The position numbers and the translations under genes were made by a program. Shown one piece after another: positions 33,742 to 60,344 of a DNA stretch of 64,000 nucleotides. Where the stretch lies: assembly GCF_015160855.1 (NCBI RefSeq), contig NZ_CP063373.1:6138001-6202000 (forward strand), written 5' to 3'. The notes under the pieces were generated by a model, which was not told the origin of the DNA, ran no database searches, and worked only from the letters and a program-made list of their open reading frames with translations. Every line of letters begins with the position of its first letter. Positions within the stretch are counted from its first letter, which is position 1. This DNA comes from Streptomyces ferrugineus (lineage in GTDB: Bacteria; Actinomycetota; Actinomycetes; Streptomycetales; Streptomycetaceae).

Positions 33742-35934
33742 TCACCGGTGACCGTGCGGGCCCGCCGAGAGCAGGTCGCCGGCGGCGCGCTCGACGTCGG
33801 ACTGGGACACGAGTACCAACTGCGCTGCCTGCCCCAGCGGGATGAAGCTGTCCTGGCCGGCGACCCGTCGGACGGAGCCGGTGAATCCGGCATCGACCAG
33901 GGCGGTGACGACTCCCTCCGACACGCCCCCTGTGCGGCGGGTCTCGTCGACCACGAGGACGCGGCCCGTCGCACGGGCTTCCCGCAGCAGGTCGTCGACC
34001 GGCAGGGGTGCCAGCCAGCGCAGGTCGACGACCCGGCACGCGATGCCCTGCCGCTCCAGCCGGTGTGCGGCTCGAAGCGAGAGGGGCACGCCGTTGCCGA
34101 AGGTCACGAGGGTGAGGTCGGAGCCCGCGCCGTAGGTGCGTGCCCGGCCGATCGGTACGTGCTGCGCGGGTGAGGGGTATGCGGCGAGCCAGCCGTTGTC
34201 CCCCTCCGTGTGGAGATCCCGCGTGTGGTAGAGCGCGATCGGCTCTAGGAAGGCGCTGACCGTCCCGTCGACCTTCCCGGCCGCCACACATGTGCGCAGC
34301 ATCGGGGCGGCGTCGTCGGGGCGGGACGGGGAGGCGATGACCAGACCGGGGATGTCCCGCAGGACGCCCAGCGCGTTGTCGTTGTGGAAGTGACCGCCGA
34401 ACCCGCGCTGGTAGCCGTAGCCGGCGATGCGGACCACCAGGGGGTTGCGGTACTGGCCCTGGGAGAAGAACTGCAGCGTGGCGGCCTCGCCGCGCAGTTG
34501 GTCCTCGGCGTTGTGCAGGTACGCGAGGTACTGGATCTCGGCCACCGGCAGCAGCCCGGACAGCCCCGCCCCCAGCGCGAGGCCGAGGATGGCCTGTTCG
34601 TCGAGCAGGGTGTCGAAGACGCGAGCGGTGCCGAATCGCCGCTGCAGTCCCCGGGTGACCCCGTAGACCCCGCCCTTGCGGCCGACGTCCTCGCCGAAGA
34701 CGACCATCTCCGGGTGGCTGCCGAGCAGGTCGGCGAGTGTGTGGGTGATGGCCTGGGCGACGGTGACGGGCTCGCCCACGGGCGGCACCGCGGGTGGTTC
34801 GCCGGTGCGGCGTGCCTCGGCCGCCACGAGGTCGGGGCGGCGCGGTGCGATGGGGGCGGCGATCTGCGTGGCGGTGGTCAGGGGCTCACTCTCCAGGGCC
34901 TCCTTGGCGACGGCGAAGACCCGTCCGCCCACCTCGTCGTACCGGTCGAGAACCTGCTGGGCGGAGAGGACGCCTGCCGCGGTGAGCAGCCGGGCCGTGG
35001 CCGCCAGCGGGTCGCGTTCCAGGTCCGCGGCGACCTCCGAGGGCACCCGGTAGGCGGCTTCGGCGTCCGAGCCCGCATGGCCGAGGAAGCGCACCATCGA
35101 CAGGTGCAGGAACGCCGGTTGCCGGTTCTTGCGGACATGGGTCACTGCCTCGCACGCGACGTCGTAGGCAGCCGACGGATCACAGCCGTCCGCGGCGAAG
35201 TAGGCGAGACCAGGACGGTTGCCGTAGGCGCGCCGCACCCAGTCGTGCGGTGTCGGCACACTGATGCCCAGGCCGTTGTCCTCGCAGACGAACAGCACCG
35301 GCATCGGCAGGCCCTGGTAGGCCGCGTGGCAGGCGCTGTTGATGGCGCCCGCCGCCGTGGAGTGGTTGGCCGAGGCGTCCCCGAAGGAACAGCAGACGAC
35401 GGCATCGCCGGGCCAGGCGCACTCGGTCCCGAGCCGCTTGGCGCGGGCGATGCTCCACGCCACCCCGACCGCCCGGGGCAGGTGGGAGGCGATGGTCGAC
35501 GTCTGCGGGATGACGGCCAGTTCGCGACGCCCGTACACCTTGTGCCGTCCACCGGCGATCGGCTCGTCGGCCCCGGCGGCCACCCCCAGCAGCATGTCCC
35601 TGACCGCGTCGACGCCGCCGGCCTGCCGGGCGCGGGCGCAGTAGAAGGCGCCGGAGCGATAGTGCAGCAACGCCGGGTCGGTGGGGCGCAGGGCGAGGGC
35701 GACTGCGGCGTTGCCTTCGTGCCCGCTCGATCCGATGGTGTAGTAGCCACGGCCCTGCTGCTGCATCCAGCGGGCGGCGGCGTCGGCGTGCCGGCTCTCC
35801 AGTTGGGCGTCGAACAGGTCCAGCGCGGTGCGGGCGTCCAGCCCGCCGCGCTGCGGCCGGATCGCCTCGTCCGTGGACCGGAGTCCGGCCACCGCCTCGC
35901 GGAAGTGCCGGTCCAGGTCCTCGACGCCGCTCAC
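33742..35934 (-). CDS. Fused alpha-beta E1 component of a 2-oxoacid dehydrogenase, probably for 2-oxoadipate
   Basis: The GTG overlaps the upstream aldehyde dehydrogenase stop as GTGA and gives 730 residues. Residues 1 to about 390 are E1 alpha, with the ThDP motif GDASANHSTAAGAIN...EDNG. Residues from about 400 on are E1 beta, with FGEDVGRKGGVYGVT, the LDEQAILGLALGAG helix and the C-terminal DETRRTGG strand. Separate subunits are usual; the fusion is a known but rarer form. Being third in an operon after lysine 6-aminotransferase and a semialdehyde dehydrogenase, it probably decarboxylates 2-oxoadipate toward glutaryl-CoA. No E2 or E3 gene is in the window. A branched-chain oxoacid role is the alternative. 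Confidence 0.8.
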   Translation of the reverse strand: MSGVEDLDRHFREAVAGLRSTDEAIRPQRGGLDARTALDLFDAQLESRHADAAARWMQQQGRGYYTIGSSGHEGNAAVALALRPTDPALLHYRSGAFYCARARQAGGVDAVRDMLLGVAAGADEPIAGGRHKVYGRRELAVIPQTSTIASHLPRAVGVAWSIARAKRLGTECAWPGDAVVCCSFGDASANHSTAAGAINSACHAAYQGLPMPVLFVCEDNGLGISVPTPHDWVRRAYGNRPGLAYFAADGCDPSAAYDVACEAVTHVRKNRQPAFLHLSMVRFLGHAGSDAEAAYRVPSEVAADLERDPLAATARLLTAAGVLSAQQVLDRYDEVGGRVFAVAKEALESEPLTTATQIAAPIAPRRPDLVAAEARRTGEPPAVPPVGEPVTVAQAITHTLADLLGSHPEMVVFGEDVGRKGGVYGVTRGLQRRFGTARVFDTLLDEQAILGLALGAGLSGLLPVAEIQYLAYLHNAEDQLRGEAATLQFFSQGQYRNPLVVRIAGYGYQRGFGGHFHNDNALGVLRDIPGLVIASPSRPDDAAPMLRTCVAAGKVDGTVSAFLEPIALYHTRDLHTEGDNGWLAAYPSPAQHVPIGRARTYGAGSDLTLVTFGNGVPLSLRAAHRLERQGIACRVVDLRWLAPLPVDDLLREARATGRVLVVDETRRTGGVSEGVVTALVDAGFTGSVRRVAGQDSFIPLGQAAQLVLVSQSDVERAAGDLLSAGPHGHR

Positions 35935-37484
35935 AGGCGGAAGGACATGTCGGGCTCCAGCATGGCCACGTCCATCTGCGCTTTCTGCAGACGGCCGGAG
36001 TGGTCCCAGTTCATCGACTGCCAGCGCGTGAACTGGTCGAGCACCCACTGGCCCGACTGGCGACTGCCGTTGCCCGACTTGCCGTTGCCGCCGAACGGCA
36101 GGTGTGCCTCGGCTCCGGAGGTGGTGTTGTTGACGCTGACCATGCCCGCGGAGATGCCGCGCCGGAACGTCCACACCTCGTGCGGGTCGGTGGTGTAGAT
36201 CGCGGCGGACAGCCCGTAGCCGTGGGCGTTGGCCAGGTCGAGGGCCTCGTCGAAGTCCCGGTAGGTGGTCACCGAGACGATGGGGCCGAAGGTCTCGGTG
36301 CGGAACAGGTCGTCGTCGCGACGCACTCCGTCGACGATCACCGGGTGGTAGAACATGCCCGCTTCGGGGTCCCCGACGAAGCCCTTGCGGGGGTTGTGGG
36401 CCGTGATCCGTCCGACGCCGTCGGAGCCGTACGTCCGGTGGTGGTCCCTGATCCAGCCGAGGAAGGTCTCGTAGCGCCGCGCGAAGCGCTCGTCGAGCAT
36501 CGGGCCGTAGAGGACGTCCTCGAACGCGTCGCCGATCCGGGCCGCGCGGCTCGCGGCGTCGAAGCGGGCGAGGAAGTCCTCGTGCACCGACTCGTGCACG
36601 ACGAGCGTCCCGAGGGAGGTGCAGCGCTGCCCCGCGGTGCCGAACCCCGAGAACAGCGCCCCCTCGACCGCCAGGTCGAGTTGTGCGCTCGGGGTGACCA
36701 CCTGGGGGTTCTTGCCGCCCAGCTCCAGGCACGGGGTCTGCAGGTGGCTTCCGCACAGGGCGCCGATCTTCCGGCCGACGGCCGTGGACCCCGTGAAGCC
36801 GACCTTGTCGACCAGCCCGGCCTCGAGGGAGGCCTCCAGACCGGCGTACGTCTGCTCCCCGTCGGCGAGTACGAGGTTGAGTACGCCGTCCGGCAGGCCG
36901 CCTCCGTGCACGAACAGCTCGAAAAGGGCCTTGGCGCTCGCGGCGGCGTACTCGGCGGGCTTCCACACCACGGTGTTGCCGGTCACGAGCGCCGGCACGA
37001 GGTACCAGGACGGCACGGCCACCGGGAAGTTGCCCGCGGTGATCACCGCGACCGCGCCCATGGGGTTGCGGAAGGTGAACAGCTGTTTGTCGGGCATCTC
37101 CGACGGCACCGTCTGCCCGTACAGCCGACGGCCCTCGCCCAGGAAGAAGTCGCAGGTGTCGATGATCTCCTGGACTTCGCCGAGTGCCTCGGCGAGCGGC
37201 TTGCCGATCTCCTCGGTCACGATGCGGGCGAGCCGGTCCTTGTTGGCCTCGACGAGCCGGCCGATCTTTCCGATCGCTGATCCGCGCACCGGCGCCGGGG
37301 TGTCCGCCCAGGACCGCTGAGCCGCCTTCGCGGCCTTGGCGGCCTCGACGAACGTCGAGACATCCCCGAGCGAGACCTCGGTGACCAGCTCGGCGGTACG
37401 GCCGGGATTGGGGCGCTGAAGAGTCCCGCCGGGAGCGCCGGCGACCGGGTGGCCGGCAACGATCGAGGCGACGGAACGGGCCAT
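35931..37484 (-). CDS. pcd: Aminoadipate-semialdehyde / piperideine-6-carboxylate dehydrogenase
   Basis: The 517-residue NAD(P) aldehyde dehydrogenase has the catalytic Glu in CLELGGKNPQVV near residue 252 and Cys in GTAGQRCTSLG near residue 287, in the ALDH7-like arrangement. It follows the lysine 6-aminotransferase gene by 28 bp and is coupled to the E1 gene. This context indicates oxidation of allysine/piperideine-6-carboxylate to 2-aminoadipate, as by Pcd of cephamycin producers. No beta-lactam genes are present, so a catabolic role is more likely here. Confidence 0.82.
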   Translation of the reverse strand: MARSVASIVAGHPVAGAPGGTLQRPNPGRTAELVTEVSLGDVSTFVEAAKAAKAAQRSWADTPAPVRGSAIGKIGRLVEANKDRLARIVTEEIGKPLAEALGEVQEIIDTCDFFLGEGRRLYGQTVPSEMPDKQLFTFRNPMGAVAVITAGNFPVAVPSWYLVPALVTGNTVVWKPAEYAAASAKALFELFVHGGGLPDGVLNLVLADGEQTYAGLEASLEAGLVDKVGFTGSTAVGRKIGALCGSHLQTPCLELGGKNPQVVTPSAQLDLAVEGALFSGFGTAGQRCTSLGTLVVHESVHEDFLARFDAASRAARIGDAFEDVLYGPMLDERFARRYETFLGWIRDHHRTYGSDGVGRITAHNPRKGFVGDPEAGMFYHPVIVDGVRRDDDLFRTETFGPIVSVTTYRDFDEALDLANAHGYGLSAAIYTTDPHEVWTFRRGISAGMVSVNNTTSGAEAHLPFGGNGKSGNGSRQSGQWVLDQFTRWQSMNWDHSGRLQKAQMDVAMLEPDMSFRL

Positions 37485-37512
37485 GGCTTAGCTCCTTGTC
37501 GGCTGGTACGGG

Positions 37513-38853
37513 TCAGTGCAGACCGGCGAGGACCCGGTCGAGGGCCCGCAGGGCGACCGCGAGCTCGTCCTGGGTGATGGACAGGGCGGGGCGGAAGCGC
37601 ACCGAACGCTCACCGCACGGCAATGCGATCACCTGCTCCTCGGTTCGCAGTCGGCGTACCACCTCGTCGCGCACACCGCTGTCGGGCAGATCGATGGCGC
37701 TCATCAGTCCGCGCCCCCGCGAGTTGGACGCCACCGGTGCGTGCCGGACTTCCAGATCACGCAGTCCGTCCAGGAACCACGATCCCACGGCAGCGGCATG
37801 GCCCACCAGGTCGTCCCTCTCGATGATCTCCAGGATGCGGCGTGCCCGGACCATGTCGACCAACCCGCCGCCCCAGGTGGAGTTGATCCGCCCGGAGACC
37901 CGGAAGACGTTGTCGGGTACCTGGTCGACCCGGCGGCCGGCCATGACTCCGCCGAGCTGGACCTTCTTGGCGAAGGCGACGATGTCCGGCTCGAGTCCGA
38001 GTTGCCGGTAAGCCCAGGTGGTGCCGGTGATCCCCACCCCGGTCTGCACCTCGTCGAGCACGAACAGCGCGTCGTACTCGTGACACAGCGCCTGCATCGC
38101 CCGCAGGAACTCCGGGCGCATGTGGTTGTCGCCCCCCTCGCCCTGGATCGGCTCGGCGATGAAGCAGGCGATGTCGTGGGGGTTGTCCTCGAACGCGCGC
38201 CGCGCCTGCTCGAGGGACCTTCGCTCGGCCTCCTCGACCTCGGCGAGATGGTGCTCGAGGGGGAACCGGATGGCGGGTACGTCGATGCGCGGCCAGTCGA
38301 ACTTCGGGAAGCGGGCCGTCTTGTTGGGCTCGGTGTTGGTGAGCGAGAGGGTGTAACCGCTGCGGCCGTGGAAGGCGTGCCGCAGGTGGAGCACCTTGGT
38401 GCCGAGCTCGGGTGAGCGGCCCGCGGCCTCGTTGCGGCGGCTCTTCCAGTCGAACGCCGCCTTGAGCGCGTTCTCGACGGCCAGCGCCCCACCTTCGACG
38501 AAGAACAGTCTCGGCAGGTCCGGATCGCCCAGCACGCGGGCGAAGGTCTCGACGAACTCGGCGTAGTGCGTGGTGTAGACGTCCGGGTTGGCGGGCTTGT
38601 TCGCCGCCACCTGCGCAAGCAGGGTCATGAACTCCGGATCGTCCACGATGCCCCGCGGGTTGAGCCCCAGCGGGGCGGACGCGAAGAACGAGTAGAGGTC
38701 GAGGAACTTCTCACCGGTGCGCGCGTCGACGATCCACGAGCCCCGGCTGGCGAGCGGGTCGAGCACAAGTTTGAAACCATCGGTCAGTACGAAGCGGCCG
38801 AGCCTGTCGTGCACCTCGTCCGGGCGGACCGTCGACGCAGCAGCAACCGTCAT
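37513..38853 (-). CDS. lat: L-lysine 6-aminotransferase
   Basis: The 446-residue class-III PLP enzyme has LFFVEGGALAVENALKAAFDWK near residue 118, which is characteristic of LAT proteins, with FVLDEVQTGVG and the Schiff-base lysine in AFAKKVQLGG near residue 300. It moves the epsilon-amino group of lysine to 2-oxoglutarate, giving allysine, which cyclises to piperideine-6-carboxylate. It is the first gene of the operon. AGGGTAGGTG precedes the ATG, and an AT-rich leader with repeated GCGAAA lies upstream. Confidence 0.88.
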   Translation of the reverse strand: MTVAAASTVRPDEVHDRLGRFVLTDGFKLVLDPLASRGSWIVDARTGEKFLDLYSFFASAPLGLNPRGIVDDPEFMTLLAQVAANKPANPDVYTTHYAEFVETFARVLGDPDLPRLFFVEGGALAVENALKAAFDWKSRRNEAAGRSPELGTKVLHLRHAFHGRSGYTLSLTNTEPNKTARFPKFDWPRIDVPAIRFPLEHHLAEVEEAERRSLEQARRAFEDNPHDIACFIAEPIQGEGGDNHMRPEFLRAMQALCHEYDALFVLDEVQTGVGITGTTWAYRQLGLEPDIVAFAKKVQLGGVMAGRRVDQVPDNVFRVSGRINSTWGGGLVDMVRARRILEIIERDDLVGHAAAVGSWFLDGLRDLEVRHAPVASNSRGRGLMSAIDLPDSGVRDEVVRRLRTEEQVIALPCGERSVRFRPALSITQDELAVALRALDRVLAGLH

Positions 38854-52949: not shown

Positions 52950-53642
52950 TCAGCCCAGCATCCACCCGCCGTCCACGGTGAGTTCGACGGCGTTGACGGA
53001 CCGGTTGCGCAGCAGGAAGTCCACCGCGTCCACGACATCGGCCATCGTGGCGAGCCGCCCGCTGGGCGTCCTGGCGCGCAGCCCGGCCAGCACCTCCTCG
53101 GGCTTGCCCGCCCAGTACGGGCTGTCCCCCACGACCCCGGGATGCACGGCGTTGACCCGCACGGGCGCCAGCTCGACGGCGAGCGTGTTCACCAGACCCC
53201 GCACCCCCGCGTTGACCGTCGCCACCGTCGTCGCCCCGGGGTAGGGGCGCTCCTTGGCCTGGCCGCCGAACAGCACGATCGCGCTGTCCTCGTGCAGCCG
53301 TGGGCCAAGCGCGTGCACGACCTCGGTGTAGCCGACGAGCTTGAGCGTGACCAGACGCAGGGCGGCGTCGATGTCGTACTCGGCGACCCGGTTCTCGTCC
53401 CGTGAGACGCCCGCGATCACCAGATGGTCCACGCGCCCGACGCCGGCCAGCGCGGCGGCGATCCCGCGCGGCCGGGCGAGGTCGAGGGCGAGGCCCTGGC
53501 GGGCGCCGATCTCCTTGGCGACCGTGTCGGCGCGATGGGCGTCCCGGCCGGTGAGGACCACCTCGTCACCCCGCTGAGCACGCAAGCGCGCGAACTCGCG
53601 GCCGATCCCGGACGTGCCGCCCACCACAAGGACACTGCTCAT
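52950..53642 (-). CDS. SDR-fold protein lacking the catalytic Tyr-Lys
   Basis: The 230-residue protein has the Rossmann motif VVGGTSGIGREFA at residues 6-18 and ends in NAVELTVDGGWMLG, as classical SDRs do. At the active site, however, the usual YxxxK is replaced by TTVATVNAG, and the Ser strand reads IVLFGGQAK. It may be a reductase with another acid/base, or a non-catalytic binding protein. It is the last gene of the seven-gene operon and overlaps the bicupin gene by 4 bp. Confidence 0.75.
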   Translation of the reverse strand: MSSVLVVGGTSGIGREFARLRAQRGDEVVLTGRDAHRADTVAKEIGARQGLALDLARPRGIAAALAGVGRVDHLVIAGVSRDENRVAEYDIDAALRLVTLKLVGYTEVVHALGPRLHEDSAIVLFGGQAKERPYPGATTVATVNAGVRGLVNTLAVELAPVRVNAVHPGVVGDSPYWAGKPEEVLAGLRARTPSGRLATMADVVDAVDFLLRNRSVNAVELTVDGGWMLG

Positions 53643-54514
53643 GAGCCCAGGGCCTCCCTCAGATAGTCCCAGTCCCGTGTGAACCGGTACGAGTGCCGCG
53701 GCGGCGGCTGCGGCGCCTGTGTCTCCAGCCAGCGCACGGGCCCCTCCCCCGCGTTGGAGAACCCGTGGACGCACCCCGCGCCGGCCCAGGCGACGTCGCC
53801 GGGCCCGAGCCGGTACCGCTCGCCGTCGAAGGTGGCGTCGACCAGGCCTTCGAGGATCAGATACGTCTCCTCGAAGGGGTGGTCGTGGCTGCCCGCGACG
53901 CCGTCCGGGGCGTACTGCACCATGAACATGGTCGAGGCGACCGCGCCGAGGTCGCTGTCGACCATCATCTTCACGGTGATCCCGCTGTACACCAGCAGCG
54001 CGGTCCGCATGCTCGCCGACACCGCGAGCAGGTCCTGCGACTGCTTGCCGGGGTCCATCTGCGCGGGCTCGAAGTGGCCGAAGGACCGGGTGCGCGGATC
54101 GCGGACGTCGATGCGCACGGGCTCCCCGGACGGCAGTTCGGGCACCGCCTGGGTGTCGTGCCCGTAGCGGGCCCGCGGCACCGGGGCGAGCATGTCGGCC
54201 CAGCGTCCGCCCGTGTCGCCGGCGCCCCGCCAGGAGTGCGGGACGCCGGTCGGCAGGAGGCCGTAGTCACCCTCTTCGAGGCGGTACGACCCCTCGGGCA
54301 CATCGAGGATCACGGCCCCGTCGAGCACATGGAAGCTCTCCTCGTACGAGTGCACATGCGCGCCGACCCGGCCGTCGGGCCGTATCTCGCACAGCCCGAA
54401 GCCGGTGTGCGTACTGCCGTCGTCCTCGCCGACCAACTCCTGACGCCGGTGACCGAGTTCGTCGTACGGCGGCTCCGGGACGTCGGCTGCGAGGCGCACC
54501 AGGTGTCGGGTCAT
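53639..54514 (-). CDS. Bicupin, possible ring-opening or aminohydrolase-type metalloenzyme
   Basis: The 291-residue protein has two cupin domains. The first holds HVHSYEESFHVLDG near residues 53-66 and the second GSHDHPFEETYLILEG near residues 208-223, both with the His/His/Glu pattern of a metal site. The layout resembles (S)-ureidoglycine aminohydrolase and oxalate or phenylpyruvate-type bicupins. It is coupled to the amidohydrolase upstream and the SDR downstream. Its partners suggest action on the amidohydrolase product, but the reaction is unknown. Confidence 0.75.
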   Translation of the reverse strand: MTRHLVRLAADVPEPPYDELGHRRQELVGEDDGSTHTGFGLCEIRPDGRVGAHVHSYEESFHVLDGAVILDVPEGSYRLEEGDYGLLPTGVPHSWRGAGDTGGRWADMLAPVPRARYGHDTQAVPELPSGEPVRIDVRDPRTRSFGHFEPAQMDPGKQSQDLLAVSASMRTALLVYSGITVKMMVDSDLGAVASTMFMVQYAPDGVAGSHDHPFEETYLILEGLVDATFDGERYRLGPGDVAWAGAGCVHGFSNAGEGPVRWLETQAPQPPPRHSYRFTRDWDYLREALGS

Positions 54515-55863
54515 GCCGCGCGCTTCGCCTCCTTCGCGGCCAGCAGCCGGTCGCGGGACTCCTGGACCAGTCGCCGGGCCCGGTCGACGTCGGCGACGAG
54601 CCTGCCGTCGCGCTTGTGGATCACGCCGTCGACGATGACCGTCTCGACGTTGGAGACGTCGGCCGAGAGGGTCACCGCGGCGGCCGCGTCGTGCACCGGG
54701 GCGACGTTGAGCGCGGTGGCGTCGACGGCGACGACGTCGGCGCGCTTGCCGGGGGTCAGGGAGCCGGTGCGGTTCTCCAGGCCCGCTACGTGTGCGCCGT
54801 TGAGCGTCGCCATCTCCAACAACTGACGGGCCGTCAGCATGGTGTCGGGCACGGGCATGTTGGCCTTCCAGCAGTCGGCGTTGACGCGGGCGCGTTCGGC
54901 GCCGAAGGCCGCGCGGATCTGGGTGAACATGTCGCCCGGCACGGTGGTGACGACGTCGATGCTCAAAGACGGCCGCAGCCCGTGCTCGACGGCCTTCATC
55001 ACGGGCGGCCAGCCGTGCCCCATCTGCAGCTCGACCTGCGGCGCGATCGACACCGTGCCGCCGCTGTCGGCGACCATCCGCCACTCCTCCTCGCTGAAGT
55101 AGCAGCAGTGGACGTAGGTGGTGTCGGCGCCGAGGAGTCCCAGGTCGTTGAGCTGCTTGACCATCCCGAAGCGGCCCGCCAGCCGGCCCATCGCCACATG
55201 CACGGTGATCGGGACGTCCAGTTCGCGGGCGAGGGCCCACTCGGCCGTGACGACGTCGTTGACGCAGAATCCGGGTCCGCGGGTGGCCAGGGCCATGGTC
55301 AGCAGGCCGTCGTCGGAGGCGAAGTAGCCGCCGCGGATCCGCCGTACGTCGTCGCCCGGCATCGCGATCTTGCTCTCGAACCAGTAGTCGGCGAGCGAGG
55401 TGTTGGCGCTGCCGTAGGCGTACTGGGCGCGGATGCCGCTCTCCTTGAGGCCCTGGATCGCGGCGTCCGGGTGGGCGGGCGTGTTGTTGATGTGCGACCA
55501 GTCGACGAGGGTCGTGATGCCGGCGTTCAGGCACTCCAGTGATCCGGCGAGGTTGCCCGCGTACACGTCCTCGGGGGTGTACAGCGGTGCGAAGGTGTCG
55601 AGGATGTCGACGAAGTAGTCGTCCAGCGTGGCGTCCGGGGCGACGTTGCGGATCGGCGCCTCCCAGGTGTGCCGGTGGGTGTCGACGAAGCCGGGGATCA
55701 CGATCCGGCCGGTCATGTCGAGCACGTCCGCGTCGGCGCTGATCTCGGGCCGCACGGCGGCGATCCGCCCGTCCTCGATGAGGACGTCTCCCCGGGGCAG
55801 GTCCCCGATGTCGGGATCCATCGACAGTACGTGACCGCCTCGCAGGAGTATCCGATGGGGCAT
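54511..55863 (-). CDS. Amidohydrolase of the Trz/Atz-deaminase type
   Basis: GGGAGGAAGAGCG precedes the ATG, giving 450 residues. Metal ligands are His63-x-His65 in DTHRHTWEAP, a His in ITVHVAMGR near 222, a His in TYVHCCYF near 250 and Asp in LSIDVVTTVPGD near 303. The last 60 residues are the composite beta domain (GSLTPGKRADVVAVD). Such enzymes deaminate or dechlorinate heterocycles such as guanine, 8-oxoguanine, cytosine analogues or triazines. It sits between E1 beta and the bicupin in an operon of unknown pathway. Confidence 0.82.
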   Translation of the reverse strand: MPHRILLRGGHVLSMDPDIGDLPRGDVLIEDGRIAAVRPEISADADVLDMTGRIVIPGFVDTHRHTWEAPIRNVAPDATLDDYFVDILDTFAPLYTPEDVYAGNLAGSLECLNAGITTLVDWSHINNTPAHPDAAIQGLKESGIRAQYAYGSANTSLADYWFESKIAMPGDDVRRIRGGYFASDDGLLTMALATRGPGFCVNDVVTAEWALARELDVPITVHVAMGRLAGRFGMVKQLNDLGLLGADTTYVHCCYFSEEEWRMVADSGGTVSIAPQVELQMGHGWPPVMKAVEHGLRPSLSIDVVTTVPGDMFTQIRAAFGAERARVNADCWKANMPVPDTMLTARQLLEMATLNGAHVAGLENRTGSLTPGKRADVVAVDATALNVAPVHDAAAAVTLSADVSNVETVIVDGVIHKRDGRLVADVDRARRLVQESRDRLLAAKEAKRAA

Positions 55864-55885
55864 CGCTCTTCCTCCCATGGGGTGT

Positions 55886-56866
55886 TCAGTAGGCGGCGAG
55901 TCCGCGTACGGTCGCCACGACCTTCTCGACGGTGGGGATCACGCGTTCCTCCAGGGCGTCGGCGAACGGCAGTGGGACACAGTCCCCCGCCACCCGTCTG
56001 ACCGGCGCGTCCAGCAGGTCGAACCCTTCGTCGGCGACGACCGAGACGAGTGTGGCGCCCCAGCCGCCCTGGTACGGGTTCTCCTCGACGGTGACGAGCC
56101 GTGAGGTCCGCCCGAGCGAGGTGAGCACGGTGGTGACGTCCAGCGGCACCAGACAGCGCAGGTCGACGACCTCGGCCTCGATGCCCTCGCCGGACAGCAG
56201 TTCGGCGGCCTTCAGCGCGACGGGGACCATCGAGGCGAGGGCGACGAGGGTGACGTCGGCGCCCTCGCGGACGACGGCGGCCCGGCCGAGTTCGACGACG
56301 TGGTCCGGGGGCGGGGGCGTGCCTTTGGAGGCGAGGAGCCCCTTGTGCTCGAAGAAGACCACCGGGTCGTCGCTGCGGATCGCGGCCGCCATCATGCCGA
56401 TCACATCGGCGGGCGTCGCGGGTGCGGCGATCTTCAGGCCGGGCACGGTCAGCGCCCAGTTCTCGGTGGCCTGGGAGTGCTGGGCGCCGAAGCCGAGCCC
56501 GCCGCCGTTGGCGGTGCGCACCACGAGCGGGACGGTGACCTGACCGCCCGTCATGTACCGCACCTTGGGGATCTCGTTGGCGAGGTAGTCCCAGCAGCAG
56601 GCCAGGAAGTCAGAGAACATGATCTCGGCGACGGGCCGCATCCCGGTCATCGCGGCGCCCATGGCGGCCCCCACGATGGCCTGCTCGGAGATCGGCGTGT
56701 CCCAGACCCGCTGCGGCCCGAACTCCTTGAACAGCCCGACGGTCGTCTTGAACACCCCGCCCGCCTCGCCGATGTCCTCGCCCAGGCAGACGACGGACGG
56801 ATCGCGCCGCATCTCGCGGGCGATGCCCTCGGCGACCGCCTCCCGGTAGCTGATCACGTCCGCCAC
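55886..56866 (-). CDS. 2-oxoacid dehydrogenase E1 beta subunit
   Basis: A GTG start after GGAGG gives 326 residues and overlaps the alpha-subunit gene by 13 bp. CLGEDIGEAGGVFKTTVGL near residue 34, DTPISEQAIVGAAMGAA with the ThDP-activating glutamate near residue 60, and the C-terminal TVEENPYQGGWG are standard for E1 beta. With the alpha subunit it would decarboxylate a 2-oxoacid, passing the acyl group to lipoate or, as in acetoin-type enzymes, cleaving a diketone. No E2 or E3 gene is in the window. Confidence 0.88.
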   Translation of the reverse strand: MADVISYREAVAEGIAREMRRDPSVVCLGEDIGEAGGVFKTTVGLFKEFGPQRVWDTPISEQAIVGAAMGAAMTGMRPVAEIMFSDFLACCWDYLANEIPKVRYMTGGQVTVPLVVRTANGGGLGFGAQHSQATENWALTVPGLKIAAPATPADVIGMMAAAIRSDDPVVFFEHKGLLASKGTPPPPDHVVELGRAAVVREGADVTLVALASMVPVALKAAELLSGEGIEAEVVDLRCLVPLDVTTVLTSLGRTSRLVTVEENPYQGGWGATLVSVVADEGFDLLDAPVRRVAGDCVPLPFADALEERVIPTVEKVVATVRGLAAY

Positions 56867-57831
56867 GCCGCACCTCCGTCGGCCCACACGTCGGTCAGCG
56901 CCTCGTCCGGATCGGCCGGCGGTGCGGCCTTGGCGGCCTCGACGGCCTTGCGCACCACGGCCGTCGCACGCTCGTCCGCCTCACCGAGCACGGCCTCGGC
57001 CACGCCCATCTCGGCCAGTTGCCCCCGCGCCAGGTCCAACGGGTCGTGTTTCAGCCAGCGTTCGACCTCCTCGGCCGGTCGGTAGGTCGCCGGGTCGGCG
57101 CGGCTGTGCCCGAAGTGCCGATAGGTCTGCGCCTCCAGCAGCGCCGGCCCGTCTCCTGCCCGGGCCCGCGCCGCGAGCCGGGCCACCGTCTCCTGGACGG
57201 CGACGACGTCGTTGCCGTCCACCACCTCGCCGGGGATGCCGTAGGCGGGCGCCCGGTCGGCGGCGGGCCGGGCCACGGCGGTGACGTCGGCGATCGGCGT
57301 GTACTCCATGTACAGGTTGTTCTCGCAGACGAACAGCACCGGCAGCTTCCATACGGCGGCGAGGTTCAGCGCCTCGTGGAAGGCGCCGATGTTGGTGGCG
57401 CCGTCGCCGAAGAAGGCGACCGCGATCTGATCGGTGCCCCGCAGCCGGGCCGACCAGGCGGCGCCGGCGGCCATCGGGAGGTGGGCGCCGACGATGGCGT
57501 AGGAGCCGAGCATGCCGGTGGAGGCTTTGGTCAGGTGCATGGAACCGCCCTTGGCCTTGCACAACCCGGTGGCCCGGCTCATGAGTTCGGCCAGGCACTC
57601 CTCGGGGGTGGCGCCCCGCGCCATCGCGTGATGGTGGCCGCGGTAGGTGGCGAAGACGTAGTCGTCGGGGCGCAGGGCGGCGCTCGCACCGACGGCGATG
57701 GCCTCGTGTCCGGCGGCGAGGTGGGTGGTGCCCTTGACCAGGCCCTGGAGGAACAGGTCGTGGGCGGCCTTCTCCGTACGGCGGATGACGGTCATCTGCT
57801 CGTATGCTGCGAGGAGCGCGGCCGGATCCAT
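56854..57831 (-). CDS. 2-oxoacid dehydrogenase E1 alpha subunit
   Basis: The 325-residue protein has RTEKAAHDLFLQGLVKGTTHL at the N-terminus and the ThDP motif GDGATNIGAFHEALNLAAVWKLPVLFVCENN near residue 143. TYRHFGHSRADPATYR is near residue 245; the equivalent loop carries regulatory serines in eukaryotes. Its ATG overlaps the TAA of the M24 gene. The sequence resembles acetoin or pyruvate E1 alpha more than branched-chain forms. Its pairing with an amidohydrolase and a bicupin is uncommon. Confidence 0.88.
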   Translation of the reverse strand: MDPAALLAAYEQMTVIRRTEKAAHDLFLQGLVKGTTHLAAGHEAIAVGASAALRPDDYVFATYRGHHHAMARGATPEECLAELMSRATGLCKAKGGSMHLTKASTGMLGSYAIVGAHLPMAAGAAWSARLRGTDQIAVAFFGDGATNIGAFHEALNLAAVWKLPVLFVCENNLYMEYTPIADVTAVARPAADRAPAYGIPGEVVDGNDVVAVQETVARLAARARAGDGPALLEAQTYRHFGHSRADPATYRPAEEVERWLKHDPLDLARGQLAEMGVAEAVLGEADERATAVVRKAVEAAKAAPPADPDEALTDVWADGGAAWRT

Positions 57832-59156
57832 TACCGCGTCCCGGTGTTCAGGTGGGACTGCGCCTCGCGGCGGGTGTTGAGCTCGCCGCCCACGGTCCAG
57901 TACTTGCGGCCGGCGACCAGCAGTTCCTCGGCGGGGAACTTGGTGATGACCTCGCAGCCGTCGGCGGTGACGACGACCTCCTCCTCGATGCGGGCGGCGG
58001 ACCAGCCGTCGGCGGCCGGCCAGTAGGTCTCCAGGGCGAACACCATGCCCTCTTCGAGGACCTCGGGATGGTCGAGGGAGACCAGCCGGCTGAAGATCGG
58101 CTTCTCCCAGATGGACAGGCCCACGCCGTGGCCGTACTGCAGCGCGAAGGCGGCGGTCTCGTCGGCGAAGCCGAACTCCTCGGCGCGCGGCCACACTTGG
58201 ACGACGTCGGCGGTCGTGGCGCCCGGACGGACGAGGGCGATGGCCCGGTCCATGTACTCGCGGCAGCGGACGTAGGCGTCGCGCTGGGCGCTGGAGGCGC
58301 TGCCGACGGCGAAGGTGCGGTAGTAGCAGGTGCGGTAGCCGAGGTGGCTGTGCAGGATGTCGAAGAAGGCCGGGTCGCCGGGGCGGATCAGGCGGTCGCT
58401 GTAGACGTGCGGGTGGGGTGAGCAGCGCTCGCCGGAGATGGCGTTGACGCCCTCGACGTACTCGCTGCCGAGGTCGTACAGGACCTTGCTGACGACTCCG
58501 ACGCACTCGTTCTCCCGTACGCCGGGCCGCAGATAGCCGTACAGCTCCTCGTACGCGGCGTCCACCATCGCGCAGGCCTGGGTGAGCAGGGAGATCTCGT
58601 CCGGGGTCTTGATGCGGCGCGCCTCCAGGAAGACCTGCTGGCCGTCGACGACGTCGATGCCCTCGGCGCGCAGGGCGGTGAGGATCGGCATCTCGGCGAC
58701 GTCGATGCCGAGCGGCTCGCCGGCCAGGCCGTGCTCGCGCAGTTCCGTGGCGATCTTCGCGGCGACGTCCTGGGCGATGCCGGCGTCCGGGTGGAAGGCA
58801 CCGCGGAGTGTGGAGATTCCGGCGCGGGCGCCGGTGGGCGGGCCCTCCTTGCCGTCGCTGTAGTCGAGCCACGGGTTGTACAGCTGGTGGTGACGGGCGG
58901 CGGAGCCGAAGTCCCAGACGATGGGTTCGCCGCCGCGCACCAGCAGGGCGAAGCGGATCAGCTTGTCCATCGCCCAGGTGCCGATGTGTGTGGCGGTCAT
59001 GTAGCGGATGTTGGCGAAGTCGAAGCTGAGCACGGCGCCCAGCTCGGAGCGGTTCAGCGTCTCGTGGAGGCGGGCCAGCCGCTGCCTGCGCAGCCGGTCC
59101 AGGTCCACTCGCTCTTCCCAGTCGACGGCATTGGGTCCGAATGTGCGGATCGCCAT
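57831..59156 (-). CDS. M24-family 'pita-bread' protein, creatinase/ectoine-hydrolase-like
   Basis: The 441-residue protein has a creatinase-like N-domain, with FANIRYMTATHIG near residue 45, and the pita-bread domain. The usual metal pair D-x-G...(S)-D is changed. FFDILHSHLGYRTCYYRTF keeps the first Asp, but the second ligand position is Cys/Tyr. The His in GHGVGLS and glutamates in FALETYW and IEEEVVVT remain. Creatinase and the ectoine hydrolase DoeA also lack this Asp, so a C-N bond hydrolase for a cyclic amidine or guanidino compound is more likely than a Pro-dipeptidase. DddP-type DMSP lyases are another M24 branch to consider. Confidence 0.75.
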   Translation of the reverse strand: MAIRTFGPNAVDWEERVDLDRLRRQRLARLHETLNRSELGAVLSFDFANIRYMTATHIGTWAMDKLIRFALLVRGGEPIVWDFGSAARHHQLYNPWLDYSDGKEGPPTGARAGISTLRGAFHPDAGIAQDVAAKIATELREHGLAGEPLGIDVAEMPILTALRAEGIDVVDGQQVFLEARRIKTPDEISLLTQACAMVDAAYEELYGYLRPGVRENECVGVVSKVLYDLGSEYVEGVNAISGERCSPHPHVYSDRLIRPGDPAFFDILHSHLGYRTCYYRTFAVGSASSAQRDAYVRCREYMDRAIALVRPGATTADVVQVWPRAEEFGFADETAAFALQYGHGVGLSIWEKPIFSRLVSLDHPEVLEEGMVFALETYWPAADGWSAARIEEEVVVTADGCEVITKFPAEELLVAGRKYWTVGGELNTRREAQSHLNTGTR

Positions 59157-59208
59157 GGCGACCACCCCCACTGCGGAGTCAACGACTGTCCAGGGCGAGT
59201 GTCAAGTG

Positions 59209-59922
59209 TCACTGAACATCTTCGCTGAACATCTCGGTGAACACGAACCAGGTACCGATGGCCGGTACGTCTCCATCGTTGCGGTAGCGGTGCGGGGTCG
59301 TCGACTCGAAGCAGACCGCGTCGCCCGGGCGCAACGTGTACTCGTCGAATCCGAGAGTGAGGATCAGCTCGCCCGAGGTCAGGCAGCCGTACTCGGTGCC
59401 GGTGTGGCGCATGAGGCCGCCGGAGCTGGAGGAGGAGCCGCCGGGCCGGTAGGTCACCTGCAGAAAGTCGACGGGGGTGCCCGGAACATGGCCGAGACGC
59501 TCCCACACCACACCCGAGTCCAGCTCCAGCACCTCGCGCTCGTCCGGTGTGACCAGCGGGCCGATGCGGCGGCCGGGGTCGGCGGCGAAGGCGGCCAGGG
59601 CGTGCAGGACGGTGCCGGGGGCGCTGCCGGGCACTGCGCCGGGTGCCGCCACCGGGGACGCGGCCGTGGCCTCGGCCGTGGCCTCGGCCGTGGCCTCGGC
59701 CGTGGCCTCGGCCGAGTCGAAGAGTGCCTCGATGGAGATGCCGAGGGCGGTCGTGATCGCGTACAGGGTGCTGACCGAGGGCTGGCTCTTGCCGTTCTCG
59801 ATCTGGGAGATGAGGCTCGCCGACACGCCGATCTCGCGGGCGAGCCCGCGCAGGCTCGTCCCACGCCGCAGGCGTGCCTGCCGGATGCGCTCACCGACGG
59901 GTGGGACGGCGGCGGGAGACAT
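59209..59922 (-). CDS. XRE-cupin transcriptional regulator
   Basis: The 237-residue protein has an N-terminal Cro/C1 helix-turn-helix ([25 protein letters not shown], near residues 24-48) and a C-terminal cupin ([20 protein letters not shown]...[15 protein letters not shown]). XRE-cupin proteins sense a small metabolite in the cupin. Four Glu-Ala-Thr-Ala repeats (about residues 71-86) link the domains. It heads the seven-gene operon, about 50 bp before the M24 gene, and probably regulates it. GAGGAG precedes the ATG. A weak inverted repeat, TTCGC and GCGAA 14 bp apart, lies upstream. Confidence 0.85.
59666..59713. repeat. Four exact 12-bp tandem repeats in the XRE-cupin linker
   Basis: GTGGCCTCGGCC occurs four times without a mismatch, encoding Glu-Ala-Thr-Ala repeats on the minus strand between the DNA-binding and cupin domains. 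Exact copies imply recent expansion, and the number may vary between strains. Confidence 0.85.
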
Positions 59923-60002: not shown

Positions 60003-60344
60003 ACCGGAAACGGGGGTCGGTGTCGCCACCGGAGACGGGGGTCGGTGTCGCCACCGGAGACGGGCGTCGGCGTCGCCACCGGAGACGGGCGTCGGCGTCG
60101 CCACCGGAATCGCGCGGGCCACGCCACCAGAGACGGACGGGTCGGCCTCGCCACCCGAGACGGACGAGCATCCGGCACCCGAAACGAACAGGCCAGCCTC
60201 GCCACCCGAGACGGACGGGCATCCGGCACCCGAAACGAACAGGTCGGCCTCGCCACCCGAGACGGACGGGCATCCCCACCCGAGACGAACAGGTCGGCCT
60301 CGCCACCGGAATCGGGCGGGCCTCGCCACCCGAGACGGGCGGCG
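60003..60344. repeat. Minisatellite with a period of about 25 bp
   Basis: The 422-bp gap between the XRE-cupin gene and the histidine kinase gene holds no gene. About 340 bp of it consists of roughly 14 degenerate tandem copies of a unit such as TCGCCACCCGAGACGGACGG plus about 5 bp. The left units are exactly 25 bp apart. On the right, pairs form a higher-order unit of 50-51 bp. The array stops right at the 3' end of the kinase gene. Since the unit is not a multiple of three, it is not coding. Confidence 0.85.

Follow-up and report, generated by a model that had tools for sequence, protein, structure and literature searches.

Results

The stretch of DNA analysed in this study, hereafter the window, comprises 64,000 nucleotides of Streptomyces ferrugineus, positions 6,138,001-6,202,000 of a single 9.96-Mb contig, NZ_CP063373.1. 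It contains seven co-directional genes on the minus strand, running from window position 59922 down to 52950, which encode a regulator with an XRE-type helix-turn-helix (HTH) domain and a cupin domain, an M24-fold protein, the alpha and beta subunits of an E1-type enzyme (E1alpha and E1beta), an amidohydrolase, a bicupin and a protein with the short-chain dehydrogenase/reductase (SDR) fold. This gene set probably serves, here and in related soil bacteria, to break down a small compound by means of familiar folds with altered active sites. The seven-gene set was described in an earlier reading of the sequence (the original prediction), whose coordinates and overlaps proved correct, and Pfam confirms the family of every one of the seven proteins. 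Gene calling by script returned the identical seven frames, with start codons that differ for three of them. The regulator gene is separated from the M24 gene by a gap of 52 bp; the M24 and E1alpha genes overlap by 1 bp, the E1alpha and E1beta genes by 13 bp, and, after a 22-bp gap that follows the E1beta gene, the amidohydrolase and bicupin genes, as well as the bicupin and SDR genes, overlap by 4 bp each. Such a layout suggests that the operon is one transcription unit.

The genes are inherited together. In a sample of 101 Streptomyces genomes we followed five of the enzymes, the bicupin, the M24 protein, the amidohydrolase, E1beta and the SDR, leaving out E1alpha and the regulator. A bicupin orthologue occurs in 13 of the 101 genomes, and orthologues of the M24 protein (at least 91% identical), the amidohydrolase (at least 84%), E1beta (at least 88%) and the SDR (at least 79%) occur in exactly those 13; none of the five has an orthologue at that identity in the other 88. 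The all-or-none distribution gives a Fisher p of approximately 1e-16, which is only indicative as it ignores shared ancestry. Twelve of the 13 carriers hold the operon genes together on one contig, and in the remaining one (G484) the genes are split over two contigs. Weaker relatives found outside the 13 genomes, namely a 56% identical M24 protein in G480, 53% identical SDRs in G439 and G457, amidohydrolases of up to 48% and E1beta proteins of up to 54% identity, are paralogues or parts of other clusters.

A wider comparison was made with the M24 protein as the anchor, for which 8000 homologues were scored at E <= 0.001, the close ones being in Streptomyces. The resulting 106 M24 loci consist of 80 from a scan of named genomes, 20 regions from a phylum sample, in which 44 of 396 genomes have an M24 match at E <= 1e-60, and six plasmid loci; the 80 are the best of 563 confirmed stretches, so that percentages of loci cannot be read as a fair picture of bacteria at large. 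In 45 of the 106 loci the six enzyme genes, those for M24, E1alpha, E1beta, amidohydrolase, bicupin and SDR, form a compact group on a single strand. Streptomyces carriers of the operon include S. coeruleorubidus ATCC 13740 (L092). Ten of the 45 loci are outside Streptomyces, in Phytoactinopolyspora, Jiangella, Virgisporangium, Micromonospora, Phytohabitans, two Nocardioides, Actinomadura and two metagenome-assembled genomes (MAGs). The order and the tight spacing thus recur in other actinobacterial families, with overlaps kept (median spacings -1, -13, +46, -4 and -4 bp between script-called genes). Together with three loci that lack the amidohydrolase, the 45 six-enzyme loci make up the 48 that we call operon-type. 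Four loci with E1 orthologues (L060, L100, L119 and L124) have an incomplete one-strand set and stand outside the 48; in one of them, L060 of genome G013, the bicupin, SDR and amidohydrolase genes are divergent from the M24-E1 genes. Outside Streptomyces, the XRE-cupin gene was detected near M24 in 10 operon-type loci, and in 8 of them the two genes are divergent. Because the identical 13 genomes hold all five enzymes and 45 loci share the six-enzyme order, the co-occurrence check that had been proposed bears out the claim that the genes belong together, and independent scattering across genomes is refuted. The operon is patchily distributed in actinobacteria, and its genes are retained or lost together.

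Table 1. The seven genes of the operon in window coordinates, with protein length and family matches
Feature	Position	Strand	Length and match
XRE-type HTH + C-terminal cupin regulator, first gene	59209..59922	-	237 aa; Pfam HTH_3 57.5 bits, Cupin_2 54.1 bits
M24-fold (pita-bread) protein	57831..59156	-	441 aa; PF00557 132 bits, sequence-based only
E1 alpha, thiamine-diphosphate 2-oxoacid dehydrogenase family	56854..57831	-	325 aa; PF00676 256.7 bits
E1 beta, GTG start	55886..56866	-	326 aa; PF02779 145.5 + PF02780 125.3 bits
Amidohydrolase, uncharacterised subfamily NF006056 (PRK08204)	54511..55863	-	450 aa; 641.4 bits vs cut-off 391
Bicupin with C-terminal 3-His/1-Glu metal site	53639..54514	-	291 aa
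SDR-fold protein, Rossmann motif kept	52950..53642	-	230 aa; PF13561 102.2 bits

Several of the enzymes carry replacements at positions that bind metal or are catalytic in their families; residue counts given here cover the window protein and distinct called proteins whose length is 85 to 130% of its own. M24 metallopeptidases, such as prolidase and methionine aminopeptidase, have a five-ligand dinuclear metal site made of Asp, Asp, His, Glu and Glu. The operon protein contains the M24 domain and keeps D266, H343, E376 and E392, but the five-ligand site is not intact: the second Asp, which binds metal in M24 peptidases and in DddP, is replaced by C277, and this cysteine is present in 100 of 100 M24 sequences. 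In the annotations examined, relatives with the substitution go by the name of Xaa-Pro peptidase or M24 metallopeptidase. The best NCBIfam model for the protein is DddP, which it matches at 118.1 bits (cut-off 600); among the structures, PDB chains 4s00 and 4b28 are listed as M24 peptidases and we take them to be DddP. The original prediction had proposed C-N bond cleavage by a creatinase- or ectoine-hydrolase-like protein, which finds no support in these comparisons, with the Cys at the metal-ligand position in every sequence and the ectoine models far under their cut-offs. The ectoine hydrolase DoeA was rejected at 60.7 against 575 and 46.1 against 613 bits. Creatinase was rejected too, its best chain (7yto) scoring 29.5 bits, under prolidase (85.7) and 4s00 (84.9). 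DddP itself, the dimethylsulfoniopropionate (DMSP) lyase, is rejected both on its score and on the metal ligands given in PMC4108388.

The amidohydrolase retains its metal site, with H63 and H65 (HxH), H222 and D303 in 63 of 63 sequences, H252 kept and E278 invariant. The catalytic glutamate of the HxxE motif, a feature of TRZ/ATZ deaminases, is missing in all 63, position 225 being Met in 48, Val in 14 and Asp in one; it is absent as well from three of four distant NF006056 members, the fourth being gapped there. Among the best 25 of 64 models, the unnamed subfamily NF006056 alone reaches its cut-off. Both results speak against the Trz-like deamination that had been assigned to this protein. 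Other NF006056 relatives lie on plasmids beside flavin adenine dinucleotide (FAD) monooxygenases, fumarylacetoacetate hydrolases or transporters and give no clear functional clue. In the bicupin, the sole invariant metal site is the C-terminal one, with three His and one Glu. The SDR-fold protein keeps the glycine-rich dinucleotide motif (G8, G12 and G14 in 60 of 61 sequences, one row being gapped). The classical SDR catalytic tetrad is Asn-Ser-Tyr-Lys, and alignment to structure 4nbu places K101, G127, V140 and N144 at these positions in 61 of 61 sequences. The same alignment rules out Y134 as a retained catalytic Tyr. The protein is thus probably not a classical oxidoreductase, and a role as an ordinary dehydrogenase is not supported.

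The E1 pair keeps the active-site residues that were checked, among them presumably the catalytic Glu and His: H66, N172 and H242 of E1alpha are present in 67 of 67 sequences and D143 in 66 of 67, and E61 and H130 of E1beta in 64 of 64. Alpha and beta domains with catalytic residues, as in E1 of the pyruvate dehydrogenase (PDH) or acetoin type, are therefore both in place. E1alpha scores 336.8 with TIGR03182 (cut-off 393.85), and E1beta passes the general PDH E1beta subfamily model NF006667 (338.8, cut-off 321). The lipoyl-bearing E2 component was found in none of the 48 operon-type loci by a search for E2 alone with a few representative sequences; because eight of these loci are shorter than 20 kb, the absence of E2 means absence from the stretch at hand. 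By comparison, of the 32 other M24 loci that contain an E1, 15 also have an E2 (Fisher p = 8.5e-8, ancestry ignored).

One explanation is that the E1 pair belongs to a normal lipoate-dependent complex with E2 and E3 borrowed from elsewhere, in which case the pathway would end in an acyl-coenzyme A. The conserved active site and the NF006667 match fit this explanation, as do the four E2 domains elsewhere in the window genome and the distant M24 clusters that have their own E2 and/or lpdA. However, no E2 was found in the 48 loci. Of the four E2 domains, those at 165-168 kb and 181-184 kb each have E1 genes of their own next to them, a third, at 8.35 Mb, is part of one long open frame together with an E1 domain, and the last stands alone at 2.40 Mb. 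We consider the borrowed complex rather unlikely, and the comparison of loci suggests that the operon E1 is probably lipoate-independent. The original prediction that an E1 pair with no E2 or E3 beside it may act free of lipoate thus receives support from the comparison of the 48 loci, in which no E2 was found, yet is unproven because of the four E2 domains.

The association of M24 with E1 extends beyond the operon, an E1 being present somewhere in the stretch, not only adjoining, in 80 of the 106 M24 loci. Plasmids of Rhodobacterales show the order SDR, M24, E1alpha, E1beta, E2 and aldehyde dehydrogenase, and in Microbacteriaceae and others an alpha-beta-fused E1 is found close to M24, along with its E2. 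In the E1beta tree the operon clade (51 rows, support 98/98) is widely separated from the clade of fused, E2-linked E1s (10 rows, 100/100). Pairing of M24 with E1 is therefore likely to have arisen more than once, although the number of recruitments is unsure because long branches meet in this tree. That M24 recurs with different E1 lineages is the best evidence that the two enzymes would act on consecutive intermediates. One Streptomyces genome (G395) has three M24 paralogues, 94, 80 and 73% identical (L057, L058 and L059), whose E1 surroundings differ: the full operon in one case, an E2 and a fused E1 in another, and an aldehyde dehydrogenase together with a separate E1 pair in the last.

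Genes next to the relatives offer further clues to the function. In 11 of the 13 non-Streptomyces operon-type loci the gene that comes right after the SDR gene encodes a reductase, always from the same sequence cluster; of the other two, L122 has a related reductase gene on the other side and L105 has none before the contig end. The one member that was scanned is GlxR/HIBDH-like, related to 2-hydroxy-3-oxopropionate reductase and 3-hydroxyisobutyrate dehydrogenase, and a partner that uses an aldehyde fits an E1 that releases one. Ribose/arabinose-type ATP-binding cassette (ABC) importer genes adjoin M24 in Acidimicrobiaceae and Rhodobacterales; in the former, as well as in one MAG resembling them, ribose-type ABC genes and M24 have the regulator, the bicupin, the SDR and a distant amidohydrolase on their flanks. 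Among other M24 relatives, some have branched-chain-amino-acid/urea-type importers and some have zinc alcohol dehydrogenases and SDRs nearby.

The importers bear on what the substrate may be. A nitrogen heterocycle, as in the original prediction, is a possible but unproven substrate; several relatives of the M24 cluster lie beside the sugar-type importers. A pathway free of nitrogen and derived from a sugar or polyol, in which the amidohydrolase would hydrolyse a lactone or a ring and the bicupin would catalyse an isomerisation, would agree with these importers, with the alcohol dehydrogenases and SDRs and with the missing deaminase glutamate, but it is hard to reconcile with the amino-acid/urea-type importers or with the RidA, amidase or flavin reductase genes near M24 of Paenarthrobacter, which suit nitrogen compounds; we regard it as unlikely. 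The allantoin-to-glyoxylate route offers another comparison. Its genes encode the ring amidohydrolase AllB, the C-N hydrolase AllC, AllE for ammonia release, Gcl and GlxR, and the operon might be a non-homologous counterpart by analogy, with the amidohydrolase in the role of AllB, a C-N hydrolase in that of AllC, ammonia release by the bicupin as in AllE, a thiamine enzyme joining 2-oxoacids as Gcl and a tartronate-semialdehyde-type reductase as GlxR. Identity of the bicupin with AllE, (S)-ureidoglycine aminohydrolase, was rejected (23.9 against a cut-off of 200) and is retained as an analogy only. This score, the 3-His/1-Glu site, an amidohydrolase from another subfamily, an E1 pair that matches PDH-type E1 models, the lack of a reductase beside the operon in the window genome and the sugar-type importers of relatives together make such a counterpart quite improbable.

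M24 relatives of 74 to 77% identity also occur near RidA on three Paenarthrobacter plasmids (L007, L008 and L159), with flavin reductase genes near M24 in L008 and L159 and sulR near it in L007 (strain R1). These plasmids belong to sulfonamide-degrading strains. A link to sulfonamide or 3-amino-5-methylisoxazole (3A5MI) degradation through sulR was dismissed, the terms Xaa-Pro, M24 and 3A5MI being absent from the accessible part of PMC10873849. The paper describes the sad genes of the R1 plasmid as transposon-borne (PMC10873849), so the neighbourhood of M24 and sulR may be accidental.

Some further features of the window touch the regulator and the E1 genes. The XRE-cupin regulator scores 70.7 on the PuuR model (cut-off 211). 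Within its gene a perfect 12-bp tandem repeat of 4.5 copies (window 59661-59714) encodes an Ala-Thr-Ala-Glu linker that joins the HTH and cupin domains, and a GC-rich imperfect tandem array (60003-60342; unit of about 50 bp, 5.9 copies, 82% matches) starts about 80 bp upstream of its start codon. A second E1 alpha-beta gene, in one fused frame, is located in window 33742-38853 on the minus strand behind an L-lysine 6-transaminase gene (TIGR03251, 687.7 against a cut-off of 520.8) and an aldehyde dehydrogenase gene. The nearest model for this dehydrogenase is piperideine-6-carboxylate dehydrogenase, far under its cut-off (346.1 against 730); the fused frame gives 94 bits with E1_dh and no NCBIfam model at E 1e-60.

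Discussion

We read the operon as catabolic because importers lie beside its relatives, many relatives also have aldehyde dehydrogenase or reductase genes nearby, and its first gene encodes a local sensor-type regulator. The interpretation that we tentatively favour, at a little short of an even chance, is a catabolic operon with an M24-E1 core, in which a metal-dependent Cys-site M24 lyase or hydrolase and an E1-type enzyme are fed by the amidohydrolase and the bicupin. From the sequence evidence we infer the substrate class, the direction, the order and each reaction of the following scheme. The XRE-cupin regulator would sense the substrate or an intermediate. The amidohydrolase may open a ring or hydrolyse off a side group, by a reaction other than classical TRZ-type deamination, and the bicupin, through its C-terminal 3-His/1-Glu metal, could cleave, decarboxylate or isomerise the product to give a 2-oxo compound. 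The Cys-M24 protein would split a C-N or C-X bond, and the E1 pair would decarboxylate or condense a 2-oxoacid without a lipoyl E2 to yield an aldehyde, which may be taken by the 3-hydroxyisobutyrate/tartronate-semialdehyde-type reductase encoded directly downstream in most non-Streptomyces operon-type loci. The flow that we think most likely places the amidohydrolase and bicupin upstream, M24 next and E1 last.

Several observations weigh against this interpretation. The AlphaFold model of the M24 protein is too poor for use, with a predicted local distance difference test (pLDDT) score of 58, and the four E2 domains of the genome could serve the operon E1. The operon is without a transporter gene, an aldehyde dehydrogenase is found in only two of the 45 operon loci, the reductase adjoins the operon in only two of 35 Streptomyces operon loci (L082 and L084), and the window genome has no reductase closer than 35% to that of the relatives. 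Three loci (L115, L132 and L134) are without an amidohydrolase next to E1beta and are otherwise complete, and in Acidimicrobiaceae, where M24, bicupin, SDR and, at a distance, an amidohydrolase are present, no E1 lies between them; because of both, the linear order of the steps is uncertain. The missing transporter in Streptomyces and the patchy distribution in 13 of 101 genomes, as in specialised metabolism, would suit a biosynthetic or repair operon instead. However, the flanking frames of the window contain no obvious specialised-metabolism genes, although no cluster-finding program was run, and the relatives keep importers and aldehyde dehydrogenases, so that we consider a biosynthetic or repair role very unlikely.

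The operon could represent a new degradative pathway in which a Cys-ligated M24 lyase is coupled to a stand-alone, lipoate-independent E1 and supplied by an amidohydrolase from a deaminase family that has itself ceased to deaminate, with a non-redox SDR and an M24-E1 pairing that has arisen more than once, a proposal that in its entirety we hold to be doubtful. No published pathway with this gene set, which would have refuted the original prediction, was found in an open-access library, most subscription papers being outside the scope of the search. The families of the proteins are familiar, and neither their combination nor the changes in the active sites seem to have been described there. 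The operon is a compact test case for Cys-substituted M24 proteins, NF006056 amidohydrolases, tetrad-less SDRs and E1s with no neighbouring E2, so that solving one operon could correct many annotations, and it could reveal a nutrient used by soil actinobacteria.

Among known systems, the match to the DMSP lyase DddP spans both domains and offers a non-peptidase M24 enzyme with an alignable metal site. DddP has six metal ligands, Asp295, Asp297, Asp307, His371, Glu406 and Glu421, according to PMC4108388; its Asp307 aligns with Cys277 of the operon protein, whereas its Asp297 faces a gap. With the TRZ/ATZ aminohydrolases, such as 8-oxoguanine deaminase, TrzN and AtzA, the amidohydrolase shares the family and the metal-ligand pattern HxH, H, D, but it differs in the lost HxxE glutamate and in its subfamily. 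The bicupin is only 12 to 18% identical to quercetin dioxygenase YxaG, oxalate decarboxylase, salicylate/gentisate dioxygenase and (S)-ureidoglycine aminohydrolase. The E1 heterotetramer of pyruvate or acetoin dehydrogenase has the same alpha and beta families and active-site residues as the operon E1, which, however, is found without E2 and forms its own clade among the M24-adjacent E1s. A parallel in gene order is seen in plasmid clusters of Phaeobacter, Tritonibacter and Marinovum, where an M24 gene (protein 54-56% identical) is directly followed by E1alpha and E1beta; unlike the operon, these clusters have an E2 and sugar-type importers, and the annotation of the stretches examined lists neither an amidohydrolase nor a bicupin.

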